Source: Pelagibius sp. (GTDB lineage: Bacteria; Pseudomonadota; Alphaproteobacteria; Kiloniellales; Kiloniellaceae). Taken from it: a stretch of DNA of 64,000 nt. The stretch is from assembly GCA_028280305.1 (NCBI GenBank), contig JANQMC010000024.1, positions 62,001 to 126,000 on the forward strand, read 5' to 3'. The translations under genes were made by a program, and so were the position numbers. Every line of letters starts with the position of its first letter. The stretch's first letter is position 1. Shown here piece after piece: positions 4,017 to 50,180 of the stretch. Under the pieces are notes generated by a model that saw nothing but the letters and a program-made list of their open reading frames with translations, was not told the DNA's origin and ran no database searches.

Positions 4017-4029
4017 GAAAGAGTCCGGC

Positions 4030-5319
4030 ATGAAAAAGACCAAGACACCGGGTTTCGAGACACGAATGATCCACGCTGGCACCCAGCCGGAACCGGTGAC
4101 CGGCGCCCGGCAGACGCCGATCTTCCAGAACACCTCCTACGTCTTCCATGACGCCGACCACGCTGCCTCGCTATTTAATCTCCAAACTTTCGGCTTCATC
4201 TATTCGCGCCTGACCAACCCGACCGTCGCGGCTCTGGAAGAACGCCTGGCGAGCCTGGAGGGCGGACGCGGGGCGACCTGCTGTGCCTCGGGACACGCAG
4301 CGCAGATCCTGGCGTTCTTTGCCATTATGGCACCGGGCGACCGCTTCGTCGCGTCGAACCGGCTTTACGGCGGCTCAATCACGCAGTTCGGCAAGACCTT
4401 CAAGAAGTTCGATTGGCAGGTCGACTTCGTCGACGTCGATAACCCTGAGAACGTCCGCAAGGCCATCGGCCCGAAGACCAAGGCGATATTTGTCGAGAGC
4501 CTCGCCAATCCCGGCGGCGTGGTGAGCGACCTTGAAGCCCTCTCGGCCATTGCCCAAGCGGCGGAGATTCCGCTGATCGTCGACAACACCATGGCGACGC
4601 CTTATCTCTGTCGTCCCTTCGAATGGGGCGCGGATCTGGTGGTGCACTCGACCACCAAATTCCTCTCGGGCAACGGAACGTCCGTCGGCGGTGCCGTTGT
4701 CGACTCAGGCCGTTTCGACTGGGCCAAGAGCGGGAAGTTCCCGGGCCTGGCCGAACCGGAACCGGCCTATCACGGGCTCAGTTTTTACGAGACCTTCGGA
4801 GACATGGCCTTCACCATGCAGGCCCACGCCGTCGGCCTGCGCGACCTCGGCGCAACCATGGCACCGATGAACGCGTTCCAGACACTGCTCGGTACAGAAA
4901 CGCTCAGCCTGCGCATGGAGCGTCACTGTGCCAATGCGAAAACCGTTGCCGAGTTTCTGGAGAACCACGAAGCGGTGGACTGGGTTTCCTGCGCTGCCTT
5001 GCCGGCCAGCCCCTATCACGATCTCGGCCTGAAGTATCTGCCGTTGGGTGCGGGCTCTGTCTTTACCTTCGGGGTCAAGGGCGGTTACGAAGCCGGTGTG
5101 AAGGTGGTCGAGAGCTGCGAGCTTTTCTCGCATCTTGCGAACATCGGCGACAGCCGCTCCCTCATCCTGCATCCGGCATCGACCACCCACCGCCAGCTAA
5201 CCGAAGAACAGCGCGAAGCCGCCGGTGCCGGCCCAGCGGTGGTGCGCCTCTCGATTGGCCTGGAGACGGTGGAAGACCTCATCGACGACCTTGGCAAGGC
5301 GCTCGCGGCCACCGTCTAG
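4030..5319 (+). CDS. O-acetylhomoserine aminocarboxypropyltransferase (paralogue 1)
   Basis: This 429-residue enzyme belongs to the Cys/Met-metabolism PLP family. The Schiff-base lysine is K210 in VVHSTTKFLSGNG, and the phosphate-binding SGHAAQ lies near residue 87. Length and the TRMIHAGTQPEPVTGARQTPI opening fit O-acetylhomoserine sulfhydrylases, which make homocysteine or methionine from sulfide or methanethiol, rather than 390-residue cystathionine enzymes. It sits in a run with the CoA-binding protein. No riboswitch precedes it, unlike the second copy at 35679. The start ATG follows GAAAGAGTCCGGC. Confidence 0.88.
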   Translation: MKKTKTPGFETRMIHAGTQPEPVTGARQTPIFQNTSYVFHDADHAASLFNLQTFGFIYSRLTNPTVAALEERLASLEGGRGATCCASGHAAQILAFFAIMAPGDRFVASNRLYGGSITQFGKTFKKFDWQVDFVDVDNPENVRKAIGPKTKAIFVESLANPGGVVSDLEALSAIAQAAEIPLIVDNTMATPYLCRPFEWGADLVVHSTTKFLSGNGTSVGGAVVDSGRFDWAKSGKFPGLAEPEPAYHGLSFYETFGDMAFTMQAHAVGLRDLGATMAPMNAFQTLLGTETLSLRMERHCANAKTVAEFLENHEAVDWVSCAALPASPYHDLGLKYLPLGAGSVFTFGVKGGYEAGVKVVESCELFSHLANIGDSRSLILHPASTTHRQLTEEQREAAGAGPAVVRLSIGLETVEDLIDDLGKALAATV

Positions 5320-35223: not shown

Positions 35224-35425
35224 AGTAATCCCATCAGGAGTACCCCTACCTGAGGCAAATTTCTCTTATTAGTTGACGAATACCTTCGGCGAAAATCGGG
35301 ATAGTTGTCGGTCATTTTGGCCGCTCGGTCAACACGGCAATCCACCCCTGGATTGAAATAGTCCACCGACAACACACCGCACAAGGTTCTTGACAAATCC
35401 GGTCCGGAAGCGCTTCCTCATGAGC

Positions 35426-35478
35426 GAAGCGCCGATTTGATCTCAGCTTGCGGGCGCTAAAGAAATGCGGCTAAACGA
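35426..35478 (+). promoter_or_regulatory. SAM-II riboswitch aptamer upstream of metY
   Basis: P1 is AGCGCC (35428-35433) with GGCGCT (35453-35458). The loop has GATTTGA and CAGCTTGCG, and the 3' strand reads AAAGAAATGCGGCTAAA (35459-35475). This is the SAM-II consensus order, including the terminal GCTAAA. SAM-II senses S-adenosylmethionine in alphaproteobacterial methionine genes and forms a pseudoknot with the GCTAAA strand. TTGACA at 35390-35395 is a candidate -35; no good -10 is seen. The 160 bases from PAS gene to this box show no other feature. Confidence 0.85.
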
Positions 35479-35498
35479 GTGGTGAAAACCGCCCGGGC

Positions 35499-35518
35499 AA
35501 GCCGTGGCGGCTTTTTTT
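35499..35518 (+). terminator. Riboswitch-associated intrinsic terminator
   Basis: AAGCCG (35499-35504) pairs with CGGCTT (35508-35513) over a TGG loop and runs into seven T. It begins 20 bases after the SAM-II aptamer, well upstream of the metY start at 35679. The AGCCG arm can also pair with CGGCT at 35468-35472 inside the aptamer 3' strand. The two structures exclude each other, as expected of a ligand-controlled terminator. Confidence 0.75.
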
Positions 35519-35678
35519 GTGCCGCATCTCCAAGCGGGATCGGACTGACCTCCCCAAGAGGTCCGCGGCGATTTGAGGGGTAGCTTGCTCCGCGTCATCA
35601 AAAGCTAAAAAATCCACTCCTGGGTGGGCCCCTCGGGGAAATGACGACACGACGATTTTGAACTGAAAGGGCCCAGAC

Positions 35679-37004
35679 ATGACCGAGTCCCCGAAAACAA
35701 GCGCGAACCCCGAAACCCTGGCACTGCATGCGGGATACCGCAGCGATCCGCAGACCGGGGCCGTGGCAGTGCCGATCTACCAAACGACATCCTACGAATT
35801 TCAGGACAGCGGCCACGCCGCAAATCTTTTTGCGCTGAAAGAGCTCGGCAACATCTATACGCGGATCATGAATCCGACCTGCGATGTGCTGGAACAGCGC
35901 ATCACCGCTATCGAAGGTGGCGCCGCAGCCTTGGCGGTGTCCTCCGGTCAAGCGGCGTCCGCCATCGCCATCCAGAACATCGCCCGTGCCGGCGACAATA
36001 TCGTCAGCTCGACCGATCTCTATGGCGGCACCTGGAATCTCTTCGCCAACACCTTCAACACCTTCGGGATCGAAGTTCGTTTTGTCGATCCCAGCGATCC
36101 CGAGAACTTCCGCCGTGCAACGGATGAACGCACCCGGGCGTACTACGCGGAGACGCTGCCCAATCCCAAGCTGGCAGTCTTTCCCATCGGCGAAGTTGCT
36201 GCCATCGGTGACGAACTGGGCGTCCCTCTTATCGTCGACAACACAGCGGCACCGATCATCTGTCAGCCGCTGAAACACGGCGCCCATATCGTCATCTATT
36301 CGACCACGAAATACATCGGCGGTCACGGTACCTCCATCGGCGGCATCCTGGTCGACGGGGGCACTTTCGATTGGGAGAAGCATGGGGAGAGGTTCCCCCT
36401 GCTGACCCAACCGGATCCGAGCTACCACGGCGCAGTCTGGACCGAGGCTGCAAAGCCGCTGGGGCCGATCGCCTACATCCTGAAAGCCAGAGTCACCCTG
36501 CAGCGCGACCTGGGCTATGCCTTGAGCCCCTTTAATGCGTTTCAGTTCATCCAGGGGCTGGAGACCTTGCCGCTGCGCATCCGCGAGCACAGCCGCAATG
36601 CGACGGCGGTCGCCGAATTCCTGGCCGGGCGCAGCGATGTGATCAACGTCATTCACCCCTCTCAGCAGGACGGAGAAAGCCGGCGGCGCGCGGATGCCTA
36701 CCTGAGTGGGGGCTTCGGCGGTCTGGTTGGCTTTGAACTGGCGGGCGGAACCCAAGCCGGACAGCGCTTCATCGATGCGCTGAAACTGTTCTATCACGTC
36801 GCCAATATCGGCGATGCGCGAAGCCTGGCCATTCATCCGGCTTCCACGACGCACTCGCAACTGGGGCCCGAGGAGCAGCTTGCCACCGGCGTTACCGAAG
36901 GCTACGTCCGCCTGTCGATCGGCATCGAACACATCGACGACATCCTCGCGGACCTCGACCAAGCGCTGACCGCGGCAGGTCAGACTGCCGCCGCCGCCGA
37001 GTAG
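35679..37004 (+). CDS. metY: O-acetylhomoserine aminocarboxypropyltransferase (SAM-regulated)
   Basis: The 441-residue PLP enzyme has the Schiff-base K211 in IYSTTKYIGGHGTS, the SSGQAASAIA phosphate loop, and the opening NPETLALHAGYRSDPQTGAVAVPIYQTTSYEF typical of MetY. It makes homocysteine from O-acetylhomoserine and sulfide. The SAM-II element and terminator upstream make it the methionine-controlled copy, in contrast to the paralogue at 4030. The ATG follows GAAAGGGCCCAGAC. An inverted repeat follows the stop codon. Confidence 0.93.
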   Translation: MTESPKTSANPETLALHAGYRSDPQTGAVAVPIYQTTSYEFQDSGHAANLFALKELGNIYTRIMNPTCDVLEQRITAIEGGAAALAVSSGQAASAIAIQNIARAGDNIVSSTDLYGGTWNLFANTFNTFGIEVRFVDPSDPENFRRATDERTRAYYAETLPNPKLAVFPIGEVAAIGDELGVPLIVDNTAAPIICQPLKHGAHIVIYSTTKYIGGHGTSIGGILVDGGTFDWEKHGERFPLLTQPDPSYHGAVWTEAAKPLGPIAYILKARVTLQRDLGYALSPFNAFQFIQGLETLPLRIREHSRNATAVAEFLAGRSDVINVIHPSQQDGESRRRADAYLSGGFGGLVGFELAGGTQAGQRFIDALKLFYHVANIGDARSLAIHPASTTHSQLGPEEQLATGVTEGYVRLSIGIEHIDDILADLDQALTAAGQTAAAAE

Positions 37005-49007: not shown

Positions 49008-50180
49008 ATGCCAGATTCGACCAGAAGCCGAAATCGACCCGCTTTCGCCACGCGCGTCATCCATGCCGGCCAATCTCCCGATCCGACGACCGGCGCGATC
49101 ATGCCGCCGATCTACGCGACGTCGACCTACGTCCAGGAGAGCCCCGGCGTCCACAAGGGCTATGAATACAGCCGTTCGCAGAACCCAACCCGCATGGCTT
49201 ACGAACGCTGCATTGCGGACCTGGAAAGCGGTCAGAAAGGCTTTGCCTTTGCCTCTGGCCTGTCGGCAATCGCGACCACCCTGGACTGCCTGGACAGCGG
49301 CAGCCACATCATCGCGATGGACGATCTCTACGGCGGCAGCTACCGCCTCTTTGAGAACGTGCGCAAGCATTCAGCCGGGCTTGATTTCTCTTTCGTCGAT
49401 CTCTCCGATGCGAATCAGCTGGAAGCCGCCATCCGGCCTGAAACCAGAATGATCTGGGTCGAGACGCCGACCAACCCTCTTCTGAAACTCGTTGATCTAG
49501 AGGCGGTTGCCGCCATCGCAAAGAGGCACGGCCTTATCTGTGCCTGTGACAATACCTTCGCGTCTCCCTGGGTCCAGCGGCCGCTCGAACTTGGCTTCGA
49601 TCTGGTCATGCACTCGGCAACTAAGTATCTGAACGGCCACTCAGACATGGTCGGCGGCGTCTTGGTGGTTGGCGAAAGCCCCGAGTTGGCTGACCGGCTG
49701 ACGTTCCTGCAAAACGCGGTCGGTGCCGTTCAGGGACCTTTCGACAGTTTCCTTGCGCTACGCGGCCTCAAGACTCTGGCCCTGCGCATGGAGCGCCACT
49801 GCAGTAATGCCCAGACGGTGGCGGACTTTCTGGAAGCACACCCGAAGGTCGAGAAGGTCTACTACCCGGGCCTGAAGAGCCACGCTCAGTATGATCTGGC
49901 ACAGCATCAGATGGATGCTCCCGGCGGCATGGTCACCGCCATCCTGAAGGGTGGCCTGGACACAGCCCGACGTTTCCTGGAGCGTGTGGAGGTCTTTGCC
50001 CTGGCCGAAAGTCTCGGCGGCGTGGAGAGCCTGATTGAGCACCCGGCAATCATGACCCATGCTTCGATCCCCGAATCAATCCGTGCCGACTTAGGCATCA
50101 GCGATGGCTTGGTGCGTCTTTCGGTCGGGATTGAAAGCGAGGACGATCTGATCGCAGACCTGCAAAACGCGCTCGCCTAG
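49008..50180 (+). CDS. Cystathionine gamma-lyase
   Basis: The 390-residue PLP enzyme has K206 in VMHSATKYLNGHSDM, the YEYSRSQNPTR substrate loop (near 52), and the ending SEDDLIADLQNAL. The 390-residue length and the partnership with cystathionine beta-synthase five bases upstream favour the gamma-lyase over the synthase. It cleaves cystathionine to cysteine, 2-oxobutyrate and ammonia. Some family members also act on O-acyl-homoserine, so dual activity is possible. The start ATG lies in a tight operon. Confidence 0.88.
   Translation: MPDSTRSRNRPAFATRVIHAGQSPDPTTGAIMPPIYATSTYVQESPGVHKGYEYSRSQNPTRMAYERCIADLESGQKGFAFASGLSAIATTLDCLDSGSHIIAMDDLYGGSYRLFENVRKHSAGLDFSFVDLSDANQLEAAIRPETRMIWVETPTNPLLKLVDLEAVAAIAKRHGLICACDNTFASPWVQRPLELGFDLVMHSATKYLNGHSDMVGGVLVVGESPELADRLTFLQNAVGAVQGPFDSFLALRGLKTLALRMERHCSNAQTVADFLEAHPKVEKVYYPGLKSHAQYDLAQHQMDAPGGMVTAILKGGLDTARRFLERVEVFALAESLGGVESLIEHPAIMTHASIPESIRADLGISDGLVRLSVGIESEDDLIADLQNALA

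Follow-up and report, generated by a model that had tools for sequence, protein, structure and literature searches.

We analysed a window of 64,000 nucleotides of contiguous DNA, which the organisms carrying the nearest metY relatives suggest to come from near the Rhodospirillales. The gene metY of this window is preceded by a leader with two matches to the Rfam family SAM_alpha/SAM-II (RF00521), on the same strand and both 5' of the gene. The features of the locus are listed below with their positions in the window.

35390-35395, + strand: -35 promoter hexamer TTGACA (sequence)
35429-35479, + strand: SAM-II aptamer 1, type 1 (RF00521, 26.5 bits, below the gathering score of 36; conserved across the order)
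35467-35472, + strand: anti-terminator 5' arm GCGGCU, within the aptamer (folding; pairing kept in relatives)
35479-35492, + strand: small hairpin GUGGU/ACCGC (35479-35483/35488-35492), nested in the anti-terminator and occupying the terminator 5' arm
35489-35518, + strand: intrinsic terminator, stem 35489-35510 and U-tract 35512-35518 (folding; U-tract after 50 of 61 type-1 aptamers)
35500-35505, + strand: anti-terminator 3' arm AGCCGU, which overlaps both loop and stem of the terminator (folding)
35564-35615, + strand: SAM-II aptamer 2, type 2 (RF00521, 17.4 bits at 35555-35629; tandem copy conserved)
35614-35627, + strand: P3 hairpin CCACU/GGUGG (folding; mutually exclusive with P2a of aptamer 2)
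35625-35631, + strand: anti-Shine-Dalgarno (anti-SD) segment UGGGCCC, complement of GGGCCCA at 35669-35675 (pair probability 0.93-0.99 in folding)
35628-35634, + strand: GCCCCUC, complementary to GAGGGGU in the loop of aptamer 2 at 35575-35581 (loop/downstream permutation test)
35666-35671, + strand: Shine-Dalgarno (SD) sequence AAAGGG of metY, 7 bases 5' of the ATG (sequence)
35679-37004, + strand: metY, O-acetylhomoserine sulfhydrylase, 441 aa (NCBIfam TIGR01326, 598.9 bits against a cut-off of 495.1)

A position upstream of methionine biosynthesis genes is a feature of SAM-II membership, and here metY starts with an ATG at 35679, as read from the sequence. A consensus scan found no full promoter. 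The -35 hexamer is followed by a weak candidate -10 (CTTCCT, 35413-35418), and a TTGAC -35 precedes the GATTTG of aptamer 1 by 40-46 bases in all of the tandem loci examined (29/29). This conserved spacing agrees with the promoter position given for SAM-II (PMC1273637).

At the gathering threshold, Rfam returned only a tRNA and no SAM-II match in the whole window, because both aptamers score below 36. We therefore used permissive scores and comparative evidence. The window contains a further O-acetylhomoserine sulfhydrylase gene (4024-5316, + strand; NF004650, 684.9 bits against a cut-off of 667) and a cystathionine gamma-synthase/lyase-like gene (49017-50180, + strand), both of the PLP-dependent sulfhydrylase/transsulfuration type. 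A landmark-pattern scan found no SAM-II site beside either of them.

The first aptamer and its terminator

The RF00521 match to aptamer 1 covers 35419-35495 and scores 26.5 bits, at an E value of 5.6e-4 in a search of all 4227 families. The first-pass annotation had placed a SAM-II aptamer ahead of metY on the basis of three landmarks, and we confirmed all of them (GATTTGA 35434-35440, GCTTGC 35446-35451, and GCTAAA 35470-35475) within an aptamer spanning 35429-35479. P1 pairs GCGCC (35429-35433) with GGCGC (35453-35457), P2 pairs GCTTGC with GCTAAA, and P2a pairs CTC (35442-35444) with GAG (35477-35479). In both aptamers of the leader, a five-pair P1 encloses the conserved GATTTGA..GCTTGC loop, and the complementarity of GCTTGC and GCTAAA predicts an H-type pseudoknot of P2 and P2a. 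The P2a strands differ between copies and are pairable in most.

Neither aptamer reaches the Rfam gathering score of 36 (26.5 and 17.4 bits), which is a database cut-off and not a feature of the RNA. The first-pass annotation had proposed that a sub-threshold score would speak against its assignment, and this is formally the outcome. However, this cut-off asks too much in the present lineage: the element is clearly conserved, yet only 19 of 41 relatives have any match above it. Aptamer 1 of the orthologous leader in one congener (G005) scores 37.4 bits, above the cut-off.

An intrinsic terminator follows aptamer 1, as had been claimed, but its stem needed to be redrawn. The hairpin, first placed within 35499-35518, is CCGCCCGG-GCAAG-CCG-U-GGCGG (35489-35510), followed by one C and seven T (35512-35518). 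The stem CCGCCCGG/CCG-U-GGCGG is favoured by folding and its pairing is kept in congeners. A stem AAGCCG/CGGCTT (35499-35513) was rejected, with a probability of 0.00 in both ensembles and its pairing lost in congeners.

The aptamer 3' strand (CGGCT, read at 35468-35472) had been proposed to compete for a terminator arm (AGCCG, 35500-35504). Folding backs this mutually exclusive pairing as GCGGCU/AGCCGU, and it is kept in relatives. A transcript grown to 35505 or to 35510 has the anti-terminator as its minimum-energy fold, and the GUGGU/ACCGC hairpin is part of the minimum-energy fold at all lengths tested between 35495 and 35515. SAM-bound states were approximated by keeping strands unpaired, because the programs we used for folding do not treat pseudoknots. 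With the P2 strands held as a stand-in for bound SAM, the probability of the terminator stem rises from 0.20 to 1.00. Folding of the growing transcript, suggested earlier as a check, thus supports the proposed coupling.

Among relatives, the anti-terminator pairing appears as GCGGCU/AGCUGC (G039) and ACGGCU/AGCUGU (G010), and an RF00521-type leader (L005) has AAAGUCGC/GCGACUUU at the same position. In permutation tests, which were run on representatives and do not fully remove shared ancestry, only 136 of 5000 swaps did as well as the true pairs. Compared with shuffles, only 2 of 25 loci stand out singly; the helix is short and G+C-rich. We consider the statistical support for a conserved anti-terminator pairing, as judged from sequence comparison, to be moderate.

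The second aptamer and the ribosome-binding site

The leader had been described as a single-aptamer switch, which captured aptamer 1 but overlooked a second SAM-II, apparently of a translational type, at 35564-35615. Its P1 (35564-35568/35590-35594) is accompanied by the landmarks GATTTGA (35570-35576), GCTTGC (35583-35588), and GCTAAA (35604-35609) and by P2a (GGGT 35578-35581/ATCC 35612-35615), and it ends 64 bases 5' of metY. Assignment to SAM-V was ruled out, as the RF01826 covariance model gave no match at the metY leader at E up to 10. Core positions are kept in 17 aligned copies, and P1 covaries (CGCGG/CCGCG versus CCCGG/CCGGG).

No U-tract lies 3' of aptamer 2; an anti-SD segment is found there instead. 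A U-tract follows 50 of 61 type-1 aptamers and just 2 of 39 of type 2, and type 2 is therefore not a terminator type. P3 sits between GCTAAA and GCCCCUC, and its 5' arm shares bases with the P2a strand required by a bound aptamer. P3 stems vary widely and are paired in most copies (for instance CCGCA/UGCGG, CGUC/GACG, CCAGG/CCUGG, and CCACG/CGUGG). The pairing of the aptamer-2 loop with the downstream segment survives sequence change (GAGGGA/UCCCUC in L037 and UGGGGC/GCCCCA in G023), and only 20 of 5000 permutations did as well as the true pairs of 20 representatives.

The 3' arm of P3 and the adjoining bases are complementary to the ribosome-binding site. Such complementarity recurs as CGUGG/CCACG in G054-type leaders and as GAUGCUCC/GGAGCAUC in G050; true downstream/ribosome-binding site pairs were beaten or matched by 190 of 5000 swaps, a weak test result. 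As long as the nascent RNA ends between 35640 and 35668 and still lacks the SD, its minimum-energy structure combines the loop pairing with P3. Once the SD is transcribed, the fold that sequesters it becomes the more stable one by 1.5-4.4 kcal/mol. The second switch is therefore probably kinetic. The SD-sequestered fold is also the minimum-energy structure of the full leader without SAM, so that the default state may be OFF or the switch purely kinetic.

Distribution of the tandem leader

We searched 61 genomes of the order with the landmark pattern GATTTG-N2..13-GCTTGC-N14..24-GCTAAA and used the reversed pattern as a control. The pattern matched 110 times and the control 0 times. Tandem pairs, with matches 116-167 bases apart on one strand, were found in 26 of the 61 genomes and in five families of the order. 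Their order is fixed: a long-linker copy with GCTTGCGGGCGC (type 1) always precedes a short-linker copy (type 2). Within the genus, 7 of 8 members have the tandem, the exception (G003) being a genome without a close metY ortholog. Outside the order, the same pair was present in at least four sampled genomes (G096, G130, G257, and G396).

The tandem leader is directly followed by metY in 18 of the 26 genomes and separated from it by one small gene in 7; in G059, there was no metY within the stretch examined. In four loci (L182-L185, from G054, G055, G028, and G040) the leader is followed by a small gene that reads as OsmC-like and then by metY, which suggests a conserved two-gene operon.

Type-2 aptamers, single or behind a diverged first copy, were also seen before sulfate-assimilation-like genes other than metY (L194 from G050, at 249-290 and 1488-1529; L125 from G026, at 621-683). 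By their sequences, the genes that follow are cysH-like and siroheme synthase-like.

An Rfam family on the opposite strand

RF02424 (Bp2_287, 'Burkholderia sRNA') matches the minus strand of the window at 35410-35517, which is the reverse complement of aptamer 1 and its terminator. We rejected the reading of this match as an antisense sRNA. In four genomes with RF02424 matches (L195 at 1501-1673, L196, L197, and L198), three of them above the cut-off, the opposite strand carries GATTTGA..CAGCTTGCGGACGCG..ACAGCTAAAG with a hairpin and T-tract downstream. RF00521 was not detected on these RF02424-matching elements. In L195, the gene after the element, on the strand opposite to RF02424, reads as a MetZ-like sulfhydrylase, and Bp2_Cand287 has been reported beside metZ/metX (PMC3521395). 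From these sequence features, RF02424 appears to describe the complementary strand of a SAM-II-type riboswitch. It may be the putative 'metXZ' element, a pseudoknot-plus-terminator structure that was reported and left unassigned (PMC4239095).

A proposed model of control at two levels

The leader has the anatomy of a tandem with two mechanisms: two SAM-II aptamers, a terminator after the first, and a second aptamer placed to affect access to the ribosome-binding site. We think it likely that it is a tandem SAM-II riboswitch that, at high SAM, turns OFF first transcription and then translation. Our analysis shows both aptamers, the terminator, and the complementarities with their conservation; we infer that SAM binds, which way each switch works, and how events follow one another in the second. 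For the second switch, the direction (OFF with SAM) is taken from pathway logic and the first switch.

Transcription would start just 5' of aptamer 1. At low SAM, GCGGCU (35467-35472) would pair with AGCCGU (35500-35505) while the other arm of the terminator is taken up by the nested GUGGU/ACCGC hairpin, and the polymerase would read through. With SAM on aptamer 1, the P2 pseudoknot would hold GGCUAAA..GAG, the terminator (35489-35518) would form, and termination would release a leader RNA of roughly 95 bases. Aptamer 2 would be present on the transcripts that escape. At low SAM, GAGGGGU in the loop of this aptamer would pair with GCCCCUC beside P3 and thereby keep the anti-SD off the Shine-Dalgarno sequence. 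With SAM, the aptamer-2 loop and the P2a strand would be held in the pseudoknot, P3 would open, and UGGGCCC (35625-35631) would pair with GGGCCCA (35669-35675), blocking ribosomes. Both would be OFF switches of methionine synthesis.

Other readings deserve consideration. Chance resemblance without any riboswitch could be argued from the two sub-threshold RF00521 matches, but the comparative data exclude it: the reversed control pattern gave 0 matches against 110 for the landmark pattern, and the position before metY, promoter spacing, and terminator are all conserved, leaving this reading a negligible probability. It is also improbable that the terminator is constitutive and uncoupled from SAM. 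Such an arrangement would fit the shortness of the anti-terminator pairing and has a precedent in S. meliloti metA, where a terminator follows a SAM-II aptamer with no predictable anti-terminator (PMC9373788); here, however, the pairing survives sequence changes and gives the growing transcript its minimum-energy structure at 35505 and 35510.

Aptamer 1 might work alone, with aptamer 2 as a copy that has decayed or has a structural role, and with the anti-SD pairing as a constitutive brake. The score of only 17.4 bits and the SD sequestration in the ligand-free minimum-energy fold point that way. We see little chance of it, given a core kept in the 17 aligned copies and five families, a covarying P1, and type-2 copies without a type-1 neighbour before other genes (G050). 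A further reading, which we regard as rather unlikely, takes GAGGGGU/GCCCCUC as an extended P2a of the SAM-bound aptamer 2, with P3 as an insertion; SAM would then hold the anti-SD, and the switch would be ON or without SD control. In its favour, the loop/GCCCC pairing is the most constant one of type-2 copies, and the adjacent P2a is weak or absent in L037 and L102. Nevertheless, the adjacent P2a is formable in most copies (GGC/GCC, GGC/GUC, GGC/GCU, and GGGU/AUCC), and an ON response to SAM would oppose both the first switch and pathway logic.

Beyond the two-level OFF switch at metY, we propose with somewhat under even confidence that type 2 is a distinct translational subtype, widespread in the order and missed by the Rfam cut-off. 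Its SD-like loop GAGGGG would rival the real ribosome-binding site for a single anti-SD strand that overlaps the P3 3' arm. In a tandem, a type-2 aptamer would always stand behind a terminator-type copy.

Comparison with known SAM-II systems

The first-pass annotation held that SAM-II riboswitches act mostly on translation. This is at odds with the literature, which has described them since 2005-2007 as mostly terminator-linked (PMC1273637, PMC2258182). SAM_alpha was reported only in Rhizobiales and Rhodobacterales, with none among Rhodospirillales (PMC4239095). Our results carry the SAM-II regulon far into a further order of Alphaproteobacteria, in which it often escapes standard thresholds. 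Its tandem leaders are natural cases in which one metabolite would act on one gene at two levels through two related aptamers, and it is therefore directly measurable whether doubling brings sharpness or economy.

The first switch resembles S. meliloti metZ, a published SAM-II/terminator case with a leader RNA of about 100 bases (the RZ sRNA; PMC9373788), where a second aptamer is not described. The predicted second switch shares the SAM-II core and translational control with metX SAM-II, a rare translational SAM-II with a crystal structure (PMC6061858). For metX, the proposal is that a short P2a itself covers the SD directly, whereas we propose a separate anti-SD segment.

The best known relative is the SAM-II/SAM-V tandem, which also combines a terminating SAM-II with a downstream SAM aptamer that controls translation. 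It differs in that the second aptamer here matches SAM-II and not SAM-V, and in that the SD lies about 60 bases 3' of GCTAAA and not in P2a. In the full-length RNA of the Pelagibacter tandem, the SAM-II aptamer was reported not to respond to SAM (PMC11508383), and the same might apply to the metY leader.

Tandem SAM-II doublets are known from 44 cases, and in some of these a terminator comes first and control of the ribosome-binding site second (PMC9481103). The arrangement of the metY leader is thus already known in kind, and it is a good, well-conserved example with no difference in kind; here, both aptamers fall below the gathering score and belong to two subtypes in a fixed order. The present analysis adds that the two SAM-II subtypes are widespread in this order of bacteria and, in tandems, keep a fixed order, and it offers a specific, testable model of the second platform.
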